Part shown: one piece after another, positions 2,350-27,499 of the stretch
Position numbering within the stretch: position 1 is the stretch's first letter
Layout of the letters: every line of letters begins with the position of its first letter
IMG/VR virus record: IMGVR_UViG_3300031857_001094
Coordinates: 1 to 27,499 of that record
Length of the DNA stretch: 27,499 nt
Reading direction: 5' to 3' (one strand)
Source of the DNA: a virus
The notes under the pieces: generated by a model
The model's database searches: none
What the model saw: the letters and a program-made list of their open reading frames with translations, nothing else
What the model was told of the DNA's origin: nothing
Made by a program: the position numbers and the translations under genes

Positions 2350-3914
2350 AGCTGCCGCGCCTGGTCCGATCAATGCTCGGCCTGGCGCCCAAGCCGGCGC
2401 GGCGCCGTCTTCCGCTGCGTGCGCGCTTCGACTCCGCGCAGACCACGGACGACAATTCCCGGCATTGGGCCATGGCAGACGGGCTGAGCGCGGACGCCGC
2501 CGCGTCGCCGGCCATTCGCCGCACGCTGCGCAACCGCAGCCGCTACGAGACCGCGAATAACTCCTATGCCCGCGGGATCGTCGACACCCTGGCGCACTAC
2601 TGCATCGGCACCGGCCCGCGCCTGCAAATGGTCGGCCTGTCGCGGTCGGATCAGGCATACGTTGAGGGCGAGTTCGCAGCATGGGCCAAGGCGGTGGACC
2701 TGGCCGACAAGCTGCGCACTGCGCGCATGGCGCGCACGGTCGACGGCGAGGCGTTCGCGCTGCTGACGAACAACGATGCGCTGCCAACGCCGGTGCACCT
2801 CGATCTACGGCTGATCGAGGCAGAGCAGGTCGCCAGCACCACCCTGACCTTCCCGAAAAATCAGGTGGACGGCATCCGGTTCGACGAGGCCGGTAACCCA
2901 ATTGAGTACGACATCCTGCCCGAGCATCCGGGGAGCACGGCGTCGATGGGCAACTACCAGGCCAAGCCGGTGCCCGCATCCGACGTGCTGCACCTATACC
3001 GCGCGGACCGCCCCGGCCAGCGCCGCGGCATTCCCGAGCTGACCCCGGCGCTCCCGCTGTTCGCCCAGCTTCGGCGCTGGACGCTGTCGGTCCTCGCTGC
3101 CGCCGAGACCGCCTCGGACTTCGCCGCGATCATGTTCACCGATTCGCCCGGCGAGTCCGGCGAACCGGAGGAGGCCGCCGCCTTCGAGCGCATCGAGATC
3201 GAGCGCCGCGCGATGATGACCCTGCCGAACGGCTGGCGCATGGAGCAGATGAAGGCCGAGCAACCGACCAGCACGTACAGCGACGTCAAGCGCGAGATCA
3301 TCGGCGAGATCGCGCGTTGCCTGTCGGTGCCGTTCAACATCGCCGCAGGAAATTCCAGCGATTACAACTACGCCTCCGGGCGCCTGGACATCCAGGTATT
3401 CCAGCGCGCCATCCAGGTCGACCGCACGCGCATCGTCACGCAGATGCTTGATCGCATCTTCGCAGCGTGGATCCGTGAGGCGGTGCTGATCGAGGACTAC
3501 CTTCCGAACTCGCTGCGCACCGTTACCACCGACTGGACGCACGTCTGGATGTGGGACGGCAACGAGCACGTCGACCCGGTGAAGGAAGCGAACGCCCAGG
3601 CCACGCGCCTGTCCTCGCTCACCACGACGCTGTCCGACGAATGGGGCAAGAGCGGCGCGGATTGGGAGGACAAGCTGGCCCAGATCGCCCGCGAGCGCGC
3701 CAAACTGAAATCGCTCGGCCTGACGCTGGGCGATGTGACGGCCCCGACCGATGCCCCGCCTGAACCGGCCCCGGCACCGCAGCCGGTGGCGGCCAGCCTG
3801 ATCGAGCGCGATTCCGCAGGTCGGATCATCGGTCTGTCCGCCAGCGCGGCCGGCCCCGGCGTGCGTCTGCGCCGAGACCGCACCGGCGCGCTGGTCGGAG
3901 TGGTACGCGCATGA
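2346..3914 (+). CDS. Portal protein (lambda gpB family)
   Basis: A 522-residue portal, the dodecameric ring at the unique capsid vertex through which DNA enters and the tail attaches. Family features include NNSYARGIVDTLAHYCIGTGP near residue 75, DVLHLYRADRPGQRRGIPEL near 215, and PFNIAAGNSSDYNYASGRLD near 335, the signature of lambda-type portals. The length matches that family. The C-terminus has a proline/alanine-rich linker and a basic tail. It starts at a GTG overlapping the preceding gene by four bases. Its stop overlaps the ATG of the collagen-like fibre gene, so head and fibre genes are translationally linked. Protease and capsid genes would normally follow; here four other genes intervene. 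Confidence 0.95.
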   Translation: MKLPRLVRSMLGLAPKPARRRLPLRARFDSAQTTDDNSRHWAMADGLSADAAASPAIRRTLRNRSRYETANNSYARGIVDTLAHYCIGTGPRLQMVGLSRSDQAYVEGEFAAWAKAVDLADKLRTARMARTVDGEAFALLTNNDALPTPVHLDLRLIEAEQVASTTLTFPKNQVDGIRFDEAGNPIEYDILPEHPGSTASMGNYQAKPVPASDVLHLYRADRPGQRRGIPELTPALPLFAQLRRWTLSVLAAAETASDFAAIMFTDSPGESGEPEEAAAFERIEIERRAMMTLPNGWRMEQMKAEQPTSTYSDVKREIIGEIARCLSVPFNIAAGNSSDYNYASGRLDIQVFQRAIQVDRTRIVTQMLDRIFAAWIREAVLIEDYLPNSLRTVTTDWTHVWMWDGNEHVDPVKEANAQATRLSSLTTTLSDEWGKSGADWEDKLAQIARERAKLKSLGLTLGDVTAPTDAPPEPAPAPQPVAASLIERDSAGRIIGLSASAAGPGVRLRRDRTGALVGVVRA

Positions 3915-5434
3915 GCCAGGAGCTTGCGGTATTGGCGCTGGCGACCGCCGAGGACGCGCTCGAAGCGGCGAAGGCCGCGACGGTTCGCGCCATGACTCCT
4001 GGCCCGATGGATCTGCGGGGTCCGCAAGGCGACGCCGGACCAGTTGGCCCGCAGGGTCCAGATGGGCCGCGGGGCGACGTGGGGCCGATCGGTCCGCGCG
4101 GAGAAACCGGCGAAGCTGGCCGGCGTGGTCCGATGGGACCGCAGGGCACTGCCGGCGATCCTGGCCGCGACGGTCTCGGCATCACCTGGCGCGGCGCGTG
4201 GTCCGAGTCCGTCACCTATTTCCGGCAAGACGCCGTCAGCCACGCTGGCGGTTCGTGGATCGCGACCGACACCAACATCGATTCGCCCCCCGGAACCGGT
4301 GCCACGTGGAACACCCTGGCCGAACCGGGCAAGGATGGAAAGCCCGGCAAGCCAGGCGACCGCGGCCCGCAGGGACCCGGCGGTGTGTCGATCACCAGTG
4401 GCGCTGGCGGTGGCGGTGACGGCGTATCAGATCATGGAGACCTCACCGGTCTCTCGGATGACGATCACAGCCAGTACCACAACGATTCTCGCGGCGATGC
4501 ACGATACCCACAACGAAGCAACAACCTTTCCGATCTGTCGTCCGTATCGACCGCGAGAACCAACCTGGGGCTGGGAACGGCTGCCACTTCTGCCACCGGA
4601 GACTTCGAGTCATCCGGCGCGGTGTCGACGCATGCAGCCCTGACCAGCGGCGTTCATGGGATCAGCGCCTTCGCGGCGACCGTCCTGGATGACACCACCG
4701 CAGCAGCGGCACGAACCACGCTCGGACTCGGCACCGCGGCAACCGCGGCAACCGGCGATTTCGACGCCGCTGGCGCCGCCGCCGCTGCCCAGGCCGCGAG
4801 CCAACCGCTGGACGCCGACCTGACCGCGATTGCTGGACTGACCAGCGCGGCGAACAAGGGCATCCAGTTCACGGGCAGCGGAACGGCCGGGACCTACGAC
4901 CTGACCACGGCGGGCAAGGCGCTCCTGGACGACGCGGACGCGTCCGCGCAACGGACCACGCTGGGACTTGGCGGCGCTGCAGTGCTTAGCGTTGGCACCA
5001 CGGCCGGAACCGTTGCGGCCGGAGACGACGCGCGCCTGAGCGACACCAGGACGCCAACCGATGCCACGGTCACCAGCGCGAAGCTCACCGGCAGCATCAC
5101 CTTCCCGGCCAGGACCATCCCCAAGGTGGTCGCGCTGACCGATGCCGCGACCATCGCCACTGACGCCTCGCTTGGTAATCACTTCACCGTCACGCTCGCC
5201 GGAAATCGCACGCTGGGGAATCCGACCAATCCGGTTGACGGTCAAATGGTCCTTTACGTCATCCGCCAGGATGCGACCGGTTCCAGGACGCTCGCGTTCG
5301 GAGCCGACTTCCGCGCGACCACTGACGTGGCGCTGCCGACGTTGAGCACTGCGGCGGCAAAAACAGACTATATCGGCTTCCGTTACAACGGCACCGACAG
5401 CAAGTGGGACTGCCTCTCGGTAGTGAAGGGATAA
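3911..5434 (+). CDS. Collagen-like fibre protein in the head module
   Basis: A 507-residue fibrous protein. After a short helical start come about 14 Gly-X-Y triplets (residues 33-78), a carbohydrate-binding-like segment with the pattern WRGAW..YF..DAV..GG.W (about 92-116), and a second short collagen run (about 140-157). Then come an LTGLSDDDHSQYHNDSRGDA motif typical of phage fibres and three repeats of the type ART-LGLGTAA, each ending near TGDF or an equivalent. The C-terminus (about 405-507) is a beta domain with NRTLGNPTNPVDGQ and RQDATGSRTLAFG, common in phage virion proteins. Collagen triplets and these repeats imply a trimer. It overlaps the portal stop codon (ATGA). Location suggests a head or neck fibre rather than a tail-tip fibre, though that is inference. 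Confidence 0.85.
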   Translation: MSQELAVLALATAEDALEAAKAATVRAMTPGPMDLRGPQGDAGPVGPQGPDGPRGDVGPIGPRGETGEAGRRGPMGPQGTAGDPGRDGLGITWRGAWSESVTYFRQDAVSHAGGSWIATDTNIDSPPGTGATWNTLAEPGKDGKPGKPGDRGPQGPGGVSITSGAGGGGDGVSDHGDLTGLSDDDHSQYHNDSRGDARYPQRSNNLSDLSSVSTARTNLGLGTAATSATGDFESSGAVSTHAALTSGVHGISAFAATVLDDTTAAAARTTLGLGTAATAATGDFDAAGAAAAAQAASQPLDADLTAIAGLTSAANKGIQFTGSGTAGTYDLTTAGKALLDDADASAQRTTLGLGGAAVLSVGTTAGTVAAGDDARLSDTRTPTDATVTSAKLTGSITFPARTIPKVVALTDAATIATDASLGNHFTVTLAGNRTLGNPTNPVDGQMVLYVIRQDATGSRTLAFGADFRATTDVALPTLSTAAAKTDYIGFRYNGTDSKWDCLSVVKG

Positions 5435-9437: not shown

Positions 9438-10091
9438 ATGGCTGAAGCCATTTTCAAACAGGACCACGGGAAGCAGATCTACACCCCCGGCAGCGCATCG
9501 CTCGCCGGTGAGGTCATCCAGCTTTCCGACCAGCGCGCGGCGGTCGTCGTCAGCGAACTGGAAGCATCGCAGCGCGGCGCCGTGTACACGCATGGCGTGT
9601 TCGACGTCCTCGCCGCCACCGGCGTCACCTTCGTGATCGGCGAAACCGTCTTCTGGGACGTGTCCGCCAACACCGCCATCAACAGCGCCAGCACCGCGCT
9701 GGCTGACTTCGCCATCGGCTCGGCGGTCGCCGCCAAGGTCAGCGGCGAGCTGGTCGTTCGCGTCGACCTCAACGCGCACCTGGCGCGCAACAAGGTGCTC
9801 GCGACGGCTGCGGCCATCACCCTGACCGCGGCCGATCTAGGCGCCACGGTCTACGGCGACACCCAGGCCGGCGCGTTCTCGATCACCCTGCCCACCGCGG
9901 CATCATGCATCGGCGGCCGGTTCACGTTCGTCCGCGCCGGCACCGGCACTAATGCGCTGACGCTGGACGGCGACGCGTCGGAGACCATCGATGGCAGCAC
10001 GACCGTGGCGACCATGGATGCCGCTCGCGACACGCTGACCATCGAGAGCAACGGCACCGCGTGGTTCATCGTCGCGGCCCGCCTCGCCTGA
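9438..10091 (+). CDS. Capsid decoration/cement protein (DUF2190-like) with extra beta domain
   Basis: A 217-residue protein. Residues 1-115 resemble the DUF2190 family of capsid cement proteins (GEVIQLSDQRAAVVV, FVIGETVFWDVSAN, AIGSAVAAKVSGELVVRVDL), which bind the outer shell and stabilise it. Residues about 120-217 add a second beta-rich domain (ADLGATVYGDTQAGAFSITL, FTFVRAGTGTNALTLDG, ETIDGSTTV) of a kind often found in fibres and other virion proteins. It is therefore probably displayed on the capsid surface. The start ATG follows AAGGGAACCAACC, a usable ribosome site. Both flanks carry hairpins, so this gene may have its own mRNA level. Family call is from pattern recognition. Confidence 0.8.
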   Translation: MAEAIFKQDHGKQIYTPGSASLAGEVIQLSDQRAAVVVSELEASQRGAVYTHGVFDVLAATGVTFVIGETVFWDVSANTAINSASTALADFAIGSAVAAKVSGELVVRVDLNAHLARNKVLATAAAITLTAADLGATVYGDTQAGAFSITLPTAASCIGGRFTFVRAGTGTNALTLDGDASETIDGSTTVATMDAARDTLTIESNGTAWFIVAARLA

Positions 10092-10103
10092 AGATTCGGA
10101 TCC

Positions 10104-10156
10104 GGAACTAGCCGGGGGACGATCGCGAGATTTCGCCTATCGCCCCCGGCAGTTCC
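10104..10156 (+). other. Long bulged hairpin upstream of head-tail connector gene
   Basis: The 53-base spacer folds almost completely on itself. GGAACT (10104-10109) pairs with AGTTCC (10151-10156), GCCGGGGG (10111-10118) with CCCCCGGC (10143-10150), CGAT with ATCG, and GCGA with TCGC around a GATT tip, with small bulges. It ends six bases before the next ATG. No U-run follows, so a translation- or RNA-stability element is more likely than a terminator. Confidence 0.7.
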
Positions 10157-10162
10157 CCCGGG

Positions 10163-10537
10163 ATGCCCATGGCCTCATCGTTCGCAACCTACTTCAACGA
10201 ACGCGCCCGCCCGGTCCTGCACCGGACGCACGCGGAGGTTGTCGTCATTCGCAACGAGGTCGCCGGGGATACCGAGGTGTCCGGCGTCTGGAAGCGTGCG
10301 CTCCCGGACGGCGGAACCGAGGCCGATGGGCTAGGGCTCCAGGCCTACGACGGCATGGCAACGCTGGTCGTGAAACTCGAAGACATGCCGACACCTCCAC
10401 TGGTCGGCGACGAGATCATCCGCGAGGATGAAACATGGACGTTGCGCCACGCCGAGCGGCAAGACGAATGGACGTGGATTCTGCACCTGTCGCGCCCGCG
10501 CGATGACCAGGTCATGCCGGCACGGATGCGCACATGA
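10163..10537 (+). CDS. Head-tail joining / head-completion protein
   Basis: A 124-residue protein in the position of lambda gpFII or HK97 head-closure proteins, which seal the portal and create the tail docking site. The sequence is beta-rich with an acidic-hydrophobic core (LVVKLEDMP, LVGDEIIREDETWTLRHAE), compatible with that fold. The call rests on gene order more than on a strong motif. Two starts are possible, ATG at 10163 or two codons later at 10169. Both lie just after the long hairpin, so ribosome access could depend on its folding. The stop overlaps the next gene's start (ATGA at 10534). Confidence 0.65.
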   Translation: MPMASSFATYFNERARPVLHRTHAEVVVIRNEVAGDTEVSGVWKRALPDGGTEADGLGLQAYDGMATLVVKLEDMPTPPLVGDEIIREDETWTLRHAERQDEWTWILHLSRPRDDQVMPARMRT

Positions 10538-11070
10538 CCGCGCTGGGCATGATCGCATGTCCGCTGGCGTCGCTCGCCGACATGCTGGCCGGATCGTCCG
10601 CGTTCCAGGCGTGGACCGGGACCGACGCGGCCACCGCGCAGTACCGCGCCCACATCGTCACCATCCCACGTTCCGCGACGGCGCCGCTCGCCCTGGTCGA
10701 TTTCGGGGATTGGGCGCGCGACCGGCTTCACATCCAGCCCGGACGCGTGTTCGAGCAACGCGCCACCTCCGCGGTCCTGCTGTATTTCCGTGCCCCTGTC
10801 CCTGACGGTCCGCCGCTCGGCCTCGACCTGTCGCGGTACGCCGACGATGATAAGCGCGCCGTTCTCGAATTTTGCCACCACGTTTCCCTGGTCCTGGCCG
10901 ACCTCGAAGCGGTCGCCGCGACCATGAGCCCGGACCGCTTGGCGTTCCGCTCCATCGAAATGGTGGCCGCGCCCACGCGCATCGTCGCCGAGAAGCGCGA
11001 TGCCCGAGGCGACTACTTCGAGACCGCGTTCTCGCTTGGCTACACCCGATCGCCCGTGGTGACGGTATGA
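10534..11070 (+). CDS. Putative tail-completion/neck protein
   Basis: A 178-residue protein in the neck module, between the head-joining protein and a gp10-like protein. It has mixed alpha/beta character with features such as VDFGDWARDRLHIQPGRVFEQ and a C-terminal half with FRSIEMVAAPTRI and DYFETAFSLGYTRSP. The latter resembles a beta-strand edge of tail terminators, but I cannot assign a family with certainty. Position suggests the tail terminator (lambda gpU role) or another connector. ATGA overlaps link it to both neighbours. Confidence 0.6.
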   Translation: MTALGMIACPLASLADMLAGSSAFQAWTGTDAATAQYRAHIVTIPRSATAPLALVDFGDWARDRLHIQPGRVFEQRATSAVLLYFRAPVPDGPPLGLDLSRYADDDKRAVLEFCHHVSLVLADLEAVAATMSPDRLAFRSIEMVAAPTRIVAEKRDARGDYFETAFSLGYTRSPVVTV

Positions 11071-11582
11071 GCATCGCCGAAGTCCGCATTGAGGGGCACG
11101 CCCAGCTCATCACCCAGCTGCGCGCACTGGCCGGCCCGGACCTGCGCCGCCTGGCCAAGCGGGTGTCCAGCACCGCCATGGCCCCGGTCCTCGCTGCGGC
11201 AAAGAGCCTGACCCCGGTCGATTCCGGCCGGTTGGCCGCGTCGATCGGCAAGCTGGCCACGCAGAACCGGGCGAAGACGTCGTTCGGATCCAGAGTCGGC
11301 ACGCGCCCGAACTACACCTACAAGACCACCAGCGGAGAGCGCATGGTCAGCGGGTCAAAGAAGTTCCGCGAGAAGCACCAGGGCCGCAAGCTGACGACGG
11401 TCTCTGCGCAGCAGTACGCGCGCCTGATCGAGTTCGGCCAATCGAAGGACGGCAAATGGAAGCGGCGTGCCGGCCCGGTCCATTTCCTTGAGACCGCGAT
11501 CCGATCGAACCAGTCCAGAATAATCACCACCATCGGCGCAGAATTGCGCGCCTACCTCACTCAACGAAAGGCCAACCCATGA
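11067..11582 (+). CDS. HK97 gp10-like tail component
   Basis: A 171-residue protein of the HK97 gp10/lambda gpZ type, which works at the head-tail joint. Family-like features are an N-terminal helix (AQLITQLRALAGPDLRRLAKR), AAKSLTPVDSGRLAASI near residue 55, YARLIEFGQSKD near residue 115, and AGPVHFLETAIRSN near the end. I chose the ATG at 11067, which overlaps the previous stop codon as ATGA and begins the recognisable domain. The open frame further upstream is translated from another gene's sequence and looks unlike protein. It ends with an ATGA overlap with the tail-tube gene. Confidence 0.85.
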   Translation: MSIAEVRIEGHAQLITQLRALAGPDLRRLAKRVSSTAMAPVLAAAKSLTPVDSGRLAASIGKLATQNRAKTSFGSRVGTRPNYTYKTTSGERMVSGSKKFREKHQGRKLTTVSAQQYARLIEFGQSKDGKWKRRAGPVHFLETAIRSNQSRIITTIGAELRAYLTQRKANP

Positions 11583-22086: not shown

Positions 22087-22260
22087 TCACGGCGCGCCCT
22101 CCGCCCACCTATCCAGCACATGCCCCAGCCCCTCGCCAGTGCGCCGGGCTGCCTTGATGGCCATCGCGGTTTCCGGCTTGACGGTCGCGCCGATGTGGAC
22201 GCGCTTGTCCTTGCGCGGGATGGGCGGGCGGCCCATCTTGGGTTTCTGTTTGCGTGGCAT
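22087..22260 (-). CDS. Small ribbon-helix-helix-like protein
   Basis: A 57-residue protein with a basic glycine-proline start (RKQKPKMGRPPIPRKDKR), a short strand (VHIGATV) and two helices (KPETAMAIKAARRTG, GLGHVLDRWAE). That is the layout of CopG/Arc-type ribbon-helix-helix DNA-binding proteins, so it may be a repressor or partition-like accessory. AGGAG lies five bases before the ATG. It is the last gene of the leftward operon and ends just beyond the late terminator. Family fit is from sequence layout, not a search. Confidence 0.7.
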   Translation of the reverse strand: MPRKQKPKMGRPPIPRKDKRVHIGATVKPETAMAIKAARRTGEGLGHVLDRWAEGAP

Positions 22261-22991: not shown

Positions 22992-23231
22992 TTAGGCGTT
23001 GTGCTCGTGGCCGGATCCGTTGCAGTGGAAGCAGATGCCGCCGCAGCGGTGATGGAAGCAGGAGAGGTTGCCCTTGCCGCGGCAGCGGTGGCAGGGGACG
23101 GGCTTGTGCTCGGGCTTGATGGAGGCGCGGACGGCAGCGTCCTCGGCGTCGAGCTTCGCGCGGTAGGCGGGATCATCCAGGCGCTTGGCGGCTGCGATGA
23201 AGGCTTCCAGGGTCAGTTCCGCGTTGCTCAT
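22992..23231 (-). CDS. DnaJ-like zinc-motif protein, 79 aa
   Basis: The first half is a charged helical region (AFIAAAKRLDDPAYRAKL). The second half has CHRCRGKGN and CFHCNGSG with intervening CFHHRC, a cysteine-histidine arrangement like a DnaJ-type zinc centre. Zinc binding is therefore likely; protein or nucleic-acid binding is inferred. A good promoter stands directly upstream, so it probably leads the leftward operon. Its predicted transcription start falls at about the ATG, with AGGA in the same DNA as the -10 element. Confidence 0.7.
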   Translation of the reverse strand: MSNAELTLEAFIAAAKRLDDPAYRAKLDAEDAAVRASIKPEHKPVPCHRCRGKGNLSCFHHRCGGICFHCNGSGHEHNA

Positions 23232-23449: not shown

Positions 23450-23469
23450 TTGTCCCATTGACGGGACAA
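23450..23469 (+). promoter_or_regulatory. Operator-like palindrome, copy 1
   Basis: TTGTCCC-ATTGAC-GGGACAA: 7-base arms and a 6-base spacer, all perfect. The centre contains TTGAC, the -35 of the rightward candidate promoter, so a bound regulator would cover the promoter. The same GTCCC-N6-GGGAC core occurs twice more downstream. Confidence 0.75.
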
Positions 23470-23485
23470 GGTAGTGGCGTATGGT
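23458..23485 (+). promoter_or_regulatory. Candidate rightward promoter
   Basis: TTGACG (23458-23463) and TATGGT (23480-23485) are separated by 16 bases; the -35 overlaps the operator-like palindrome. The start would be near 23492, giving a short leader and the AAGGAG site of the zinc-finger gene. Suggests repressible transcription of the helicase-methyltransferase unit. Confidence 0.5.
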
Positions 23486-23502
23486 TCCGCCAAGGAGAAC
23501 CA

Positions 23503-23673
23503 ATGGCCTTCCGCGCCGGAACCATGCCACCGACTTGCAAGTGTCTAACTTGCCATCGCACCTACCACCAGGACAGGAAACGACCGCAGAGCACGCGCGA
23601 GTACTGCTCGCTGTCGTGCTTCGAGCGACGAGTCCATAACCGACTTGACAATCTGGTGCGGTATGCTCAGTGA
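23503..23673 (+). CDS. Small zinc-finger-like protein, 56 aa
   Basis: A 56-residue basic protein with KCLTCHRTYH and, 19 residues later, YCSLSCFERR: four cysteines spaced like a small zinc finger, plus nearby histidines. AAGGAG at 23492-23497 is five bases before this ATG. A TTG start 15 codons earlier is possible but would overlap the operator and lies upstream of the predicted transcription start. It precedes and overlaps the helicase-methyltransferase gene by 11 bases, suggesting that the proteins are made together. Nucleic-acid binding is inferred. Confidence 0.7.
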   Translation: MAFRAGTMPPTCKCLTCHRTYHQDRKRPQSTREYCSLSCFERRVHNRLDNLVRYAQ

Positions 23674-25933
23674 ATACCGAGCCAACATCGCCGCAAAGCA
23701 ATGGACCGCGCCGGCAGCAGGATTCGATCCGACCGTAGTCCCATCCCAGCTATTCGACTGGCAGCGCGCAGTCCTGCGATGGGCGTGCAAGAAGGGGCGC
23801 GCTGCACTGTTCGAGGACTGCGGCCTGGGCAAGACCATTCAGCAGATCGCATGGGCCGAGAACGTGCGAGTCCACACGGGCGGAAGCGTGCTGATCCTGG
23901 CGCCGTTGGCGGTTGCTGACCAGACCGTCCGAGAGGGCGGCAAGATCGGGATCGAAGTCCGGCACATCCGCGAAGTGTCCGAGATTGACGGCGAGCCGCG
24001 GATCTACGTCACCAACTACGACCGACTCCATCGGTTCACTGAACGGATGTGGGGCGGCGTTGTGCTTGACGAGTCGTCGATCATCAAGAGCTACAACGGC
24101 AGCACTCGCAACCTGATCATTGAGACATTTTCCCGCACGGATTACCGGCTGGCATGCACGGCGACGCCATCGCCGAACGACCACACGGAGCTTGGCAATC
24201 ACGCGGAGTTCCTGGGCGTGATGACGAGAACGGAAATGCTGGCGTCGTTCTTCGTCCATGACGGCGCGGAGACCAGCGTATGGCGGTTGAAGGGTCACGC
24301 GCAGCGGGATTTCTGGCAGTGGGTCGCAGGCTGGGCGATCATGATGCGGACGCCAGCGGACATCGGATTCAGATCCGATGGGTACGTGCTGCCAGAATTG
24401 AAGATCATCCGCCACGTCATCGCGTCAGGAATTGAGACGCCAGACACGATCTTCGCCATGCCAGCGCAGACCCTGTCGGAACAGCGCGCAGCGCGACGCA
24501 TGACCATGCAGAAGCGAGTCGACATGGCGGCAGCCCTGGCATCAGTCGATGGCCCGTGCCTGGTCTGGTGCGAGATGAACGATGAGGGAGACATGCTGGA
24601 GGAATCTATCGAAGGATCAGTCCAGGTTGCCGGCGCCAATGACGAAGACGAGAAGTCATCGCGCATGATGGGATTCGCGGACGGCATCCACCGGTGCCTG
24701 GTCACCAAGCCCAAACTGGCCGGATTCGGCATGAACTGGCAGCACTGCAATCGCATGGTTTTTGTCGGCCTTTCTCACAGTTACGAGCAATTCTATCAGG
24801 CAGTAAGGCGATGCTGGCGATTTGGGCAATCCCGCCCGGTCGAGGCGCACATCATCACCACAGACATCGAAAGCGAGATCATGGACAACATAGACCGGAA
24901 ACAGGCGGAAGCGGATGCGATGACATCCGGGATGGTTGAGCACATGGCAGAGATTACCAAGGCCGAGATTGTCGGCACCGATCGGCAGGAAGACGAGTAC
25001 CGCACCGCGACCGTTGGCGAATCACAGTGGACTGCCAACCTCGGCGACTGCGTAGAAGGCATCAGTAAATTGCCCAACGAATCCGTGCATTACTCAGTGT
25101 TTTCCCCTCCGTTTGCGTCGCTCTACACCTACAGCAATTCCCCATTTGATATGGGCAACTGCAAGGATCACGGAGAGTTCTTCCGGCAATTCGTATACCT
25201 GACTCGCGAGCTATTCCGAGTGATCAAGACCGGCCGGCTGGTGTCGTTCCACTGCATGAACCTGCCGACCAGCAAGGAGCGGGATGGGTTCATCGGAATC
25301 GTTGACTTTCGCGGCATTCTGATCAGGGCGTTTCAGGATGCCGGGTTCATCTTCCACTCAGAGGTCTGCATCTGGAAGGATCCGGTGACGGCGATGCAGC
25401 GGACGAAGGCTCTCGGGCTTCTGCACAAGACGATACGCAAGGACTCCGCTATGTCACGACAGGGCATCGCCGACTATCTGGTGACGATGCGCAAGCCTGG
25501 CCTGAACCCGGAGCCAATCCCGCACTCTGACGATCTGCCGGTCAGTTTGTGGCAGCGGTATGCCTCGCCTGTCTGGATGGACATCAGGCCAAGCGACACG
25601 TTGCAGAAGGAGTCGGCCAGGGAAGAGAACGACGAGCGGCACATCTGCCCGTTGCAACTTGGCGTGATCGAAAGGTGCATCCACCTGTGGAGCAACCCCG
25701 GCGATCTTGTGCTTTCCCCGTTTATGGGCATCGGATCGGAGGGGTACATGGCACTGAAGATGGGCCGGAGGTTTGTCGGGTTCGAGCTGAAGTCGTCCTA
25801 TTACCAGCAAGCCGTGGCCAATCTAAAGGCGGTGTCCGGAAACGACTGCAATCAGCAGACCATATTCGACGCGATCCAAACCAGCGCCACCGACTACCGA
25901 AACCAAGACCCGAACGCGCAGGTAATGGTATGA
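23663..25933 (+). CDS. SNF2-type helicase fused to DNA methyltransferase
   Basis: A 756-residue two-part enzyme, numbered from the ATG at 23663. The helicase part has GLGKT (Walker A, about 54-58), a DExx box DESS (about 136-139), TATP (about 166-169) and an arginine-rich motif VI-like QAVRRCWRFGQ (about 379-389). The methyltransferase part has SPPF (about 481-484) and then FMGIGSEG (about 687-694, AdoMet binding). That is the IV-before-I order of beta-class adenine-N6 or cytosine-N4 methyltransferases. Phages use such fusions, for example P1 DarB, in modification or defence evasion; a role here is inferred. No nuclease motif seen. The start has a poor ribosome site and overlaps the zinc-finger gene. 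Confidence 0.9.
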   Translation: MLSEYRANIAAKQWTAPAAGFDPTVVPSQLFDWQRAVLRWACKKGRAALFEDCGLGKTIQQIAWAENVRVHTGGSVLILAPLAVADQTVREGGKIGIEVRHIREVSEIDGEPRIYVTNYDRLHRFTERMWGGVVLDESSIIKSYNGSTRNLIIETFSRTDYRLACTATPSPNDHTELGNHAEFLGVMTRTEMLASFFVHDGAETSVWRLKGHAQRDFWQWVAGWAIMMRTPADIGFRSDGYVLPELKIIRHVIASGIETPDTIFAMPAQTLSEQRAARRMTMQKRVDMAAALASVDGPCLVWCEMNDEGDMLEESIEGSVQVAGANDEDEKSSRMMGFADGIHRCLVTKPKLAGFGMNWQHCNRMVFVGLSHSYEQFYQAVRRCWRFGQSRPVEAHIITTDIESEIMDNIDRKQAEADAMTSGMVEHMAEITKAEIVGTDRQEDEYRTATVGESQWTANLGDCVEGISKLPNESVHYSVFSPPFASLYTYSNSPFDMGNCKDHGEFFRQFVYLTRELFRVIKTGRLVSFHCMNLPTSKERDGFIGIVDFRGILIRAFQDAGFIFHSEVCIWKDPVTAMQRTKALGLLHKTIRKDSAMSRQGIADYLVTMRKPGLNPEPIPHSDDLPVSLWQRYASPVWMDIRPSDTLQKESAREENDERHICPLQLGVIERCIHLWSNPGDLVLSPFMGIGSEGYMALKMGRRFVGFELKSSYYQQAVANLKAVSGNDCNQQTIFDAIQTSATDYRNQDPNAQVMV

Positions 25934-26187
25934 CCCTGTTTATCCTGCCGCGGTCCACCTTCGCAACCGACCTGATCACGCACGACGCGACGATCAGGCC
26001 GGCGCGCAACCGGGACTTTGACCCCAAGGCCGGCGCGGTGGTCACATCCGCAGCGCAGTACCAGCGCGACGCGATCATCCACAACGCGCTTCTGACTGTT
26101 GCCATGGCTGCCGAGGCCATGCCAGAGTCCGCCAGGTCGGCGGAACTGAATGCAGCCCTTGCGGTGGTTCGCGATGGATTCCAGTAG
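25930..26187 (+). CDS. Hypothetical protein, 85 aa
   Basis: Starts with ATGA overlap to the helicase-methyltransferase stop. The sequence has FILPRSTFATDLITHDATIR, a helical middle and an acidic end (EAMPESARSAELNAALAVV). No family recognised. Coupling to the upstream gene suggests a partner or accessory. Its stop codon TAG touches the second operator-like palindrome (26186-26203). Confidence 0.65.
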   Translation: MTLFILPRSTFATDLITHDATIRPARNRDFDPKAGAVVTSAAQYQRDAIIHNALLTVAMAAEAMPESARSAELNAALAVVRDGFQ

Positions 26188-26203
26188 TCCCTTGCGCGGG
26201 ACT
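26186..26203 (+). promoter_or_regulatory. Operator-like palindrome, copy 2
   Basis: AGTCCC-TTGCGC-GGGACT is a perfect 6-base inverted repeat with a 6-base spacer. It lies 24 bases before the ATG of the small HTH gene, with AATAAT (26212-26217, five of six to a -10) just downstream. It therefore sits where a -35 would be; autoregulation of the HTH protein is an attractive guess. Confidence 0.7.
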
Positions 26204-26226
26204 GTGTTGCCAATAATTGAGGACGC

Positions 26227-26463
26227 ATGACCCCCATCTGCCCCCGCTCCGTCAAGGCCAAGGTGCGCCGCGCCATCAAGGCCGGCGCGACCGTCCGCGA
26301 ACTGTCCGAGCTTGCCGGGCTGGGCAGGTCCTGGCATCCGCGCATCCTGGAATCGCCGGAAACTACCAGTTATCGCGTGCTTTCCGCGCTTTCGTGGGCG
26401 TGCGACAAGTGGCGTCCCGCGCGCGGGACAAAAGTACTTGACGGCGCCAAGGTCGCGGAGTAG
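26227..26463 (+). CDS. Small helix-turn-helix protein, 78 aa
   Basis: The middle IKAGATVRELSELAGLGRSW with the following TTSYRVLSALSWACDKW fits a compact XRE-like HTH: a scaffold helix, a recognition-type helix and a third helix. Its basic N-terminus (PRSVKAKVRRAIKAG) fits DNA binding. GAGG is five bases before the ATG. It is a natural candidate to bind the GTCCC-N6-GGGAC palindromes: one lies directly upstream and another inside the end of its own gene. Binding is not proven. No dimer or protease-sensitive CI-type domain is present. Confidence 0.75.
   Translation: MTPICPRSVKAKVRRAIKAGATVRELSELAGLGRSWHPRILESPETTSYRVLSALSWACDKWRPARGTKVLDGAKVAE
26414..26429 (+). promoter_or_regulatory. Operator-like palindrome, copy 3 (inside HTH gene)
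   Basis: GTCCC-GCGCGC-GGGAC is a full 16-base palindrome inside the 3' end of the HTH gene, about eight bases before a TTGACG (26438). It may control the following small genes. Confidence 0.65.
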
Positions 26464-26472: not shown

Positions 26473-26610
26473 ATGAAGATCAACGAACTCCTGAGCGCGC
26501 GCATCCTGGCCCTGCTCGCCTTGAAGGCCGCAGCCCGCAACCCCGACGCCCAGGCCGCGGCCGTCCAGCGGCGCACCGCGCTGCTCATGCTGACCGGGGG
26601 TGGACAGTGA
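26473..26610 (+). CDS. Tiny helical protein, 45 aa
   Basis: A short protein made of alanine- and leucine-rich amphipathic sequence (MKINELLSARILALLALKAA, then NPDAQAAAVQRRTALLML). Its stop overlaps the next gene's GTG start (GTGA at 26607), which supports translation. No standard ribosome site; a near-leaderless mRNA is one possible explanation. Unknown function. Confidence 0.5.
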   Translation: MKINELLSARILALLALKAAARNPDAQAAAVQRRTALLMLTGGGQ

Positions 26611-26918
26611 TCTCCGCGCAACGGTACGACGTCGAGGAATCGGAGCGATGGCATGACTGGATAGCCAAGATCCCGGCAATCCAGTTCGATGCCGGCTGGC
26701 TGGTGCGTGTCATCCCGCCGTTTACGGGAGCCATGGTTCGGTTCCAGGTGAAGTCCGGGGACAAGACCGCATCGGTCTACCTGGATGTCTACGAACGGCT
26801 GGGCAGCTTCGGCGCCCCCTACTGGGAGGTCTACCCAATCGACGGGGACGTTGAGCGGTGCGCCATGGATGACGTGGCCGAACTGCTGACTCTGATCAGG
26901 AAGGCGGTGAAGCCATGA
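26607..26918 (+). CDS. Hypothetical protein, 103 aa
   Basis: Starts at a GTG coupled to the previous stop, with GGGGGTGG upstream. Has aromatic, acidic sequence such as YDVEESERWHDWIAKIPAIQ, a beta-like stretch VRFQVKSGDKTASVYLDVYE, and a charged C-terminal helix. No known family. Its stop overlaps the next gene's ATG, indicating a co-translated set of small accessory genes. Confidence 0.65.
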   Translation: MISAQRYDVEESERWHDWIAKIPAIQFDAGWLVRVIPPFTGAMVRFQVKSGDKTASVYLDVYERLGSFGAPYWEVYPIDGDVERCAMDDVAELLTLIRKAVKP

Positions 26919-27115
26919 TCGACTCCACCTGCCTTATCGCCCTGGCCCAATCCGGCAAGATGGTGTCCGAACTGTCGGAGATGATGGCAGACGGCCAGAT
27001 CACGCCAGATGAGGCGTCCAAGATCCTGGCCCGCATCCACCTGATGCGCAACGACCTGGACTCGCTGGCAAATGCCGCCGCGCGGATCGTGGTCAGGAAT
27101 GGCGTGCACGTATGA
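26915..27115 (+). CDS. Small helical protein, 66 aa
   Basis: A mostly helical protein (CLIALAQSGKMVSELSEMMA, GQITPDEASKILARIHLMRN, DLDSLANAAARIV), with a DGQITPDEA segment of generic helix-turn-helix style. ATGA overlaps join it to both neighbours. Function unknown. Confidence 0.6.
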   Translation: MIDSTCLIALAQSGKMVSELSEMMADGQITPDEASKILARIHLMRNDLDSLANAAARIVVRNGVHV

Positions 27116-27237: not shown

Positions 27238-27256
27238 CCACCACCAAGGTATCGAC

Positions 27257-27499
27257 ATGCTCACCGCCCTCTCAATCGCCGTCTCCGTCCTCGGCATGAC
27301 CTCCGTATCGTTGGCCGTCGCGGTACATCTGCTGCGACGAAAGATGCGGCGGATGGAATGGGCCGATGCCTCGCGGTCGCTGATGGACGAGCTGCAGAAG
27401 TCCTCGACCGGCACGCCGAACAGGCCGGACCGCGGCGAGCGCATCGCCAACCTGCGCGGCACCATCGAAGCCACCAAGGCGATCGAACTGACGCTTGCC
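27257..27499 (+). CDS. N-terminally anchored membrane protein (3' partial)
   Basis: An open frame of 81 codons running off the window. A strong membrane segment (MLTALSIAVSVLGMTSVSLA and on) is followed by a basic stop-transfer stretch (LLRRKMRRMEW) and a charged, probably cytoplasmic region (SLMDELQKSSTGTPNRPDRG). AAGG seven bases before the ATG supports the start. Function cannot be told from this part. Confidence 0.6.
   Translation, partial: MLTALSIAVSVLGMTSVSLAVAVHLLRRKMRRMEWADASRSLMDELQKSSTGTPNRPDRGERIANLRGTIEATKAIELTLA

Follow-up and report, generated by a model that had tools for sequence, protein, structure and literature searches.

Gene layout and three palindromes in the early region

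The window analysed here is the whole stretch of 27,499 nucleotides at positions 1 to 27,499 of IMG/VR virus record IMGVR_UViG_3300031857_001094. Structural genes run rightward from its left end, followed by small leftward genes that end at 23231 and then by a rightward early region. A 507-aa protein encoded at 3911-5434 carries an N-terminal collagen-like Gly-X-Y stretch and is probably a tail fibre or tail-tip protein. The early region contains a helicase-methyltransferase fusion gene, whose ORF begins at TTG 23645 with an alternative start at ATG 23663, and several small ORFs (Table 1). A second contig of this phage, the sister contig IMGVR_UViG_3300042691_013471, matches the window at 99.97% identity across 9.6 kb of compared sequence and carries RecT, exonuclease and RusA-like genes further right, which marks this part of the genome as an early or recombination region. 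The two contigs agree at 99.97% identity until window position 27245 and diverge fully from there on (window 27245-27499 against L081 from 9020); this divergence reflects either a strain difference or an assembly join.

Table 1. Palindromic sites, neighbouring genes and candidate regulators, with window coordinates
Feature	Position	Strand	Basis or description
Ribbon-helix-helix-like 57-aa ORF, alternative regulator candidate	22087..22260	-	Two predicted helices after N-terminal stretch, pLDDT 69
Site 1	23450..23469		TTGTCCC-ATTGAC-GGGACAA; 7-bp arms; exact match
Zinc-ribbon/HNH-like 56-aa ORF, first gene after site 1	23503..23673	+	Weak PHROG HNH match, E 0.0015; poor codon score, -0.2
SNF2-type helicase fused to N6/N4 DNA methyltransferase	23645..25933	+	PF00176, PF00271, PF01555
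85-aa ORF, stop codon overlapping site 2	25930..26187	+	No family match
Site 2	26186..26203		AGTCCC-TTGCGC-GGGACT; 6-bp arms; exact match
Putative helix-turn-helix (Cro/XRE-like) 78-aa gene, candidate regulator, between site 2 and end of site 3	26227..26463	+	Codon usage; predicted helices
Site 3	26414..26429		GTCCC-GCGCGC-GGGAC; 5-bp arms; exact match
45-aa ORF, first gene after site 3	26473..26610	+	Codon score 0.46
66-aa protein like C-terminal part of phage CII (CP76) regulators, alternative regulator candidate	26915..27115	+	phrog_101, E 1e-7; PF06892, E 4e-5

A first-pass annotation of this DNA had reported three perfect GTCCC-N6-GGGAC palindromes with common arms and an exact 6-base spacer, and had seen no further copy. 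Both statements were confirmed, with exact matches at 23452-23467, 26187-26202 and 26414-26429; the window holds neither a fourth exact copy nor any copy with one mismatch. A depletion of near-matches suggested by shuffled sequences vanished once real viral DNA served as the comparison. Scanning GTCCC-Nk-GGGAC from k=0 to 39 returned three matches at k=6 and none at all other values, while the everted arrangement (GGGAC-Nk-GTCCC) was absent from the window at every spacing scanned. Measured from centre to centre, 11 bp or about one helical turn separate the half sites of each palindrome, and the three sites are separated from each other by 2.7 kb and 227 bp. Beyond the 5-bp core the arms are not the same among the sites. 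Two of the three spacers are not symmetric; the GCGCGC spacer of site 3 makes its entire 16-mer perfectly palindromic.

All three sites end 24-43 nt 5' of an ATG that is accompanied by a Shine-Dalgarno-like sequence. Site 1 is located within the 271-bp gap separating leftward from rightward genes, and the 56-aa ORF begins with an ATG 35 nt further on. From the end of site 2 it is 24 nt to the ATG of the 78-aa ORF; site 3 lies inside the 3' end of that same ORF, 43 nt before the next ATG (26473).

Occurrence of the motif in relatives and other phages

The sister contig carries the same three sites and none in addition, despite an early region that is ~5.7 kb longer. Conservation in related phages, which the first-pass annotation had suggested scanning for, was not found: a relative with 46% portal identity (L082) has no copy in 43 kb, and portal relatives together have two isolated copies in 0.92 Mb. 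Searching with the downstream exonuclease returned relatives from the same phage only. Random copies, whose abundance would have spoken against a specific role, are scarce both in these portal relatives and in four bacterial genomes in which portal relatives occur, where 10 copies were counted in ~18.5 Mb. Genome contigs with a related portal come mostly from Planctomycetota bins and in one case from a Caulobacterales bin, which leaves the host uncertain. A contig encoding a relative of the helicase-methyltransferase (L006) has a three-copy palindrome set of its own, CCCGA-N4-TCGGG at 10703, 11512 and 11914, positioned downstream of that gene and inside longer repeats.

Across IMG/VR, a 14-base form of the motif was found in 86 stretches, with 11 loci containing at least two core sites; several of these rows repeat the same phage, and another is the locus of the window. 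No multi-site locus appeared among the 47 stretches obtained with a control motif of the same composition. This excess supports use of the motif by other phages and is no proof of its use in this window. Spacers at the multi-site loci are mostly symmetric, a difference from the window that speaks against reading its sites by analogy with them. Two further palindromes recur exactly among the contigs: the 20-bp TTGTCCCGACGTCGGGACAA in L090, L103 and L162, and TTGTCCCGCCGGCGGGACAA in L105, L131 and L157. When searching for two sites 196-226 bp apart, seven stretches were obtained, one of them from this phage.

In the unrelated contig L325 (IMGVR_UViG_3300021387_001787), two exact GTCCC-N6-GGGAC sites flank a Cro-type gene (HTH_3, E 1.5e-8). 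The first closely precedes the start of this gene and the second is located at the stop codon; an integrase and an HTH_3 gene in divergent orientation (E 1.7e-9) are neighbours. Larger sets are found in unrelated contigs, namely L327 (IMGVR_UViG_3300049460_000150; 15 sites), L328 (IMGVR_UViG_3300033182_000296; 14 sites), L329-L331 (IMGVR_UViG_3300021062_000003) and L092, each with 4 to 15 near-identical copies whose centre is phage-specific (GTTTCC/GGAAAC, AACNTT, CAATTG, CACGTG). The sites in L327 and L328 are mostly upstream of starts and, together with those in L092, mostly 12-56 nt upstream of start codons. The asymmetric centres in L327 and L328 point both ways when the genes are read in the same direction, a pattern that fits DNA binding better than an RNA loop. 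In L321 a site overlaps a stop codon. L322 presents a different picture, with a 507-aa ORF (9908-11431) of repeated VPDQGPLE-type peptides whose coding DNA carries GTCCC-N6-GGGAC palindromes in an array; these may be origin iterons located within a replication gene. Because all of these loci were found by motif search, their common arms and spacing are not independent evidence and their gene context alone counts. By analogy, they suggest that such sites can surround a Cro-type gene, which is not to show that the sites of the window serve one. A broader interpretation would make palindromes of this kind before gene starts a recurring element of unrelated phages, present in 2 to 15 copies per record with a phage-specific centre and read by a shared class of DNA-binding protein, and the window a low-copy example; we regard this generalization as rather unlikely.

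Candidate regulators and the putative promoter

Codon usage of the 78-aa ORF is phage-like and that of the overlapping frames is not. A single-sequence structure model of low confidence (mean pLDDT of 53) places four helices at residues 7-18, 23-29, 38-41 and 49-60, in an order like that of a Cro/XRE domain. Profile searches with the protein gave no match in Pfam, PHROG or NCBIfam, and the HTH_3 and HTH_26 profiles did not match it even at E 10, nor did they match anywhere in the window or the sister record. Foldseek searches with the model were not significant, XRE proteins being listed only at E above 3. Homologues were found neither in IMG/VR beyond the same phage, nor in phage records or genome contigs, nor in 691 genomes covering Planctomycetota and the order of a Caulobacterales genome. 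Weak genome matches and three weak viral matches were discarded as they look like chance, antisense or stop-interrupted hits. The earlier description of site 2 as lying immediately upstream of a small HTH gene is accurate in its position; the HTH assignment itself draws on predicted secondary structure, with neither profile match nor homologue.

Two other small proteins were considered. The 66-aa CII-like protein is without the DNA-binding half of CII (CP76) regulators. The ribbon-helix-helix-like 57-aa ORF yielded no profile or fold match, and its gene is ~1.2 kb from the nearest site. General family searches recognised no CI-type repressor or integrase among the proteins tested, which come from a record that may be incomplete.

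The first-pass annotation had further proposed that site 1 covers a -35 element. An overlapping promoter-like sequence, TTGACG-16-TATGGT, is indeed present and agrees with the consensus at 9 of 12 positions; site 1 is the only one of the three sites with such an overlap. This sequence would imply a transcription start at ~23492 and a leader of about 11 nt. We consider the promoter doubtful because the implied start falls on the Shine-Dalgarno sequence. None of the three sites was listed as an intrinsic terminator, which would have a T run after a GC-rich hairpin, and searching the sites against Rfam gave no family match.

Operator reading, alternatives and known systems

Based on these observations, we favour, with a probability of roughly 55%, an interpretation in which the three palindromes are DNA operators of a dimeric phage-encoded regulator controlling early genes. 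Palindromic sites spaced by about one turn of the helix are frequent targets of HTH domains (PMC12204516). The distance between the half sites agrees with what a symmetric HTH dimer would need. Site 1 would serve to control the zinc-ribbon and helicase-methyltransferase genes, site 2 the putative HTH gene and site 3 the small genes that follow it. The single likeliest binder is, tentatively, the 78-aa protein, which is encoded beside sites 2 and 3. Cro-type proteins repress their own gene and damp early transcription, and the 78-aa protein might act likewise on both its own gene and the early region; autoregulation is possibly part of the operator set. The sites, their spacing, their position before starts and the coding character of the 78-aa ORF are direct observations; that a protein binds the sites, which protein does so and whether it represses or activates are inferred. 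Of the originally proposed local regulon, in which a repressor or activator controls the helicase-methyltransferase unit, the core is retained as the best reading, a local early-region operator set with spacing-6 sites before gene starts, and the promoter and HTH details named with it are weaker.

Coincidence would mean that three unrelated palindromes in a GC-rich genome were singled out afterwards. The earlier estimate of about 0.1 or fewer expected copies was reproduced (0.10 expected in the window against three observed, with 0 of 100 shuffles reaching three), but this figure ignores that the motif was picked after being seen. We therefore compared it with all 5-bp-arm palindrome families, and some family with three copies within 3 kb was found in 33% of shuffles. 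Weighting every family by the number of copies expected for it gives the cluster in the window a p of about 3e-9 before correction. An equally or more improbable palindrome cluster occurred once in 2.2 Mb of other viral DNA (~80 window-equivalents), and the family-weighted cluster is roughly a 1-2% event per window. That one control cluster, and the missing conservation in relatives, would fit coincidence, whereas the restriction of the sites to spacing 6 argues against it. Of all positions, 3-5% lie at such a short distance upstream of an ATG that has a Shine-Dalgarno-like sequence; three of three sites do so, which is evidence independent of the cluster statistics. The product of both significances is ~1e-4, which is somewhat optimistic because the distance limits were set after looking. 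The three sites are real and beyond chance, and coincidence is in our judgement quite unlikely as their explanation.

The palindromes could also function at the RNA level, as stem-loops in the leader of a polycistronic early message or between its genes, and affect downstream translation, stability or processing. Following transcription, all three sites precede starts, each folds into a short hairpin of about -10 kcal/mol, and site 2 shares its overlap with a stop codon with the L321 example. However, in context these folds are no better than those of shuffled sequences (z of -1.2, -1.3 and -0.2), the loops are not the same among the sites and the arm sequence is constant beyond mere complementarity. 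Together with the lack of an Rfam match and the mixed orientation of the elements in L327 and L328, this makes an RNA role unlikely. Operators for a regulator other than the 78-aa protein, a reading that overlaps with the favoured one, carry a modest minority of our expectation. Here the binder would be the CII-like protein, the ribbon-helix-helix-like protein, a host protein or a repressor encoded in phage DNA beyond the sequenced part. The profile match of the CII-like C-terminal part, the helix pattern of the 57-aa ORF and the possible incompleteness of a record in which the proteins tested included no CI-type repressor or integrase are all compatible with such a binder. Against such binders stand the missing DNA-binding half of the former protein, the distance of the latter gene and the lack of any motif excess in the four bacterial genomes that contain portal relatives. 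A role as replication-origin iterons recognised by an initiator is highly improbable: sites in L322, and perhaps L326, do form arrays in or beside replication-type genes, but the sites of the window, 2.7 kb and 227 bp apart, form no array, each of them precedes a start codon and no replication initiator was recognised beside them.

The preferred reading of an early-region operator set can be compared with several known systems. Inverted repeats upstream of non-structural gene starts are also known as the ESAS of cluster K mycobacteriophages, whose authors suspect DNA-protein sites (PMC3203893). ESAS have imperfect 17-bp arms and are tied to the 13-bp SAS GGGATAGGAGCCC at the ribosome-binding site (PMC3203893), whereas the arms in the window are 5-7 bp long, and reading the sequences around the three starts by eye revealed no motif resembling GGGATAGGAGCCC. 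With neither the 13-bp SAS nor 17-bp arms, assignment to this class was rejected. The L325 switch likewise has a small gene flanked by two exact sites, upstream of its start and at its 3' end. It differs from the window in its clear HTH_3 proteins, divergent partner gene, integrase and other spacer sequences, and its proteins have no sequence similarity to the 78-aa protein. The arm sequence of GTCCC-N6-GGGAC was not found described in the literature searched. To our knowledge, few phages of Planctomycetota have been characterised. If correct, our interpretation would provide a testable operator sequence and a regulator candidate for a phage whose relatives are mainly in Planctomycetota bins, as well as a concrete motif for locating similar control regions in other uncultured phages. 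The Cro/CI operators of temperate phages offer another parallel. In TP901-1 the CI operator set consists of three sites, OR, OL and OD (PMC7250872), and as in the window these are few early-region sites at divergent gene sets near a small regulator gene, which in the window is a candidate one. Unlike TP901-1-type systems, the window contains no recognised CI-type repressor or integrase among the proteins tested and a regulator candidate without an HTH profile match. Repeated symmetric sites with constant arm and spacer are common to the window and to Cro/CI operator sets. The palindromes probably belong to a phage switch of a common type whose site sequence is new to the literature searched.
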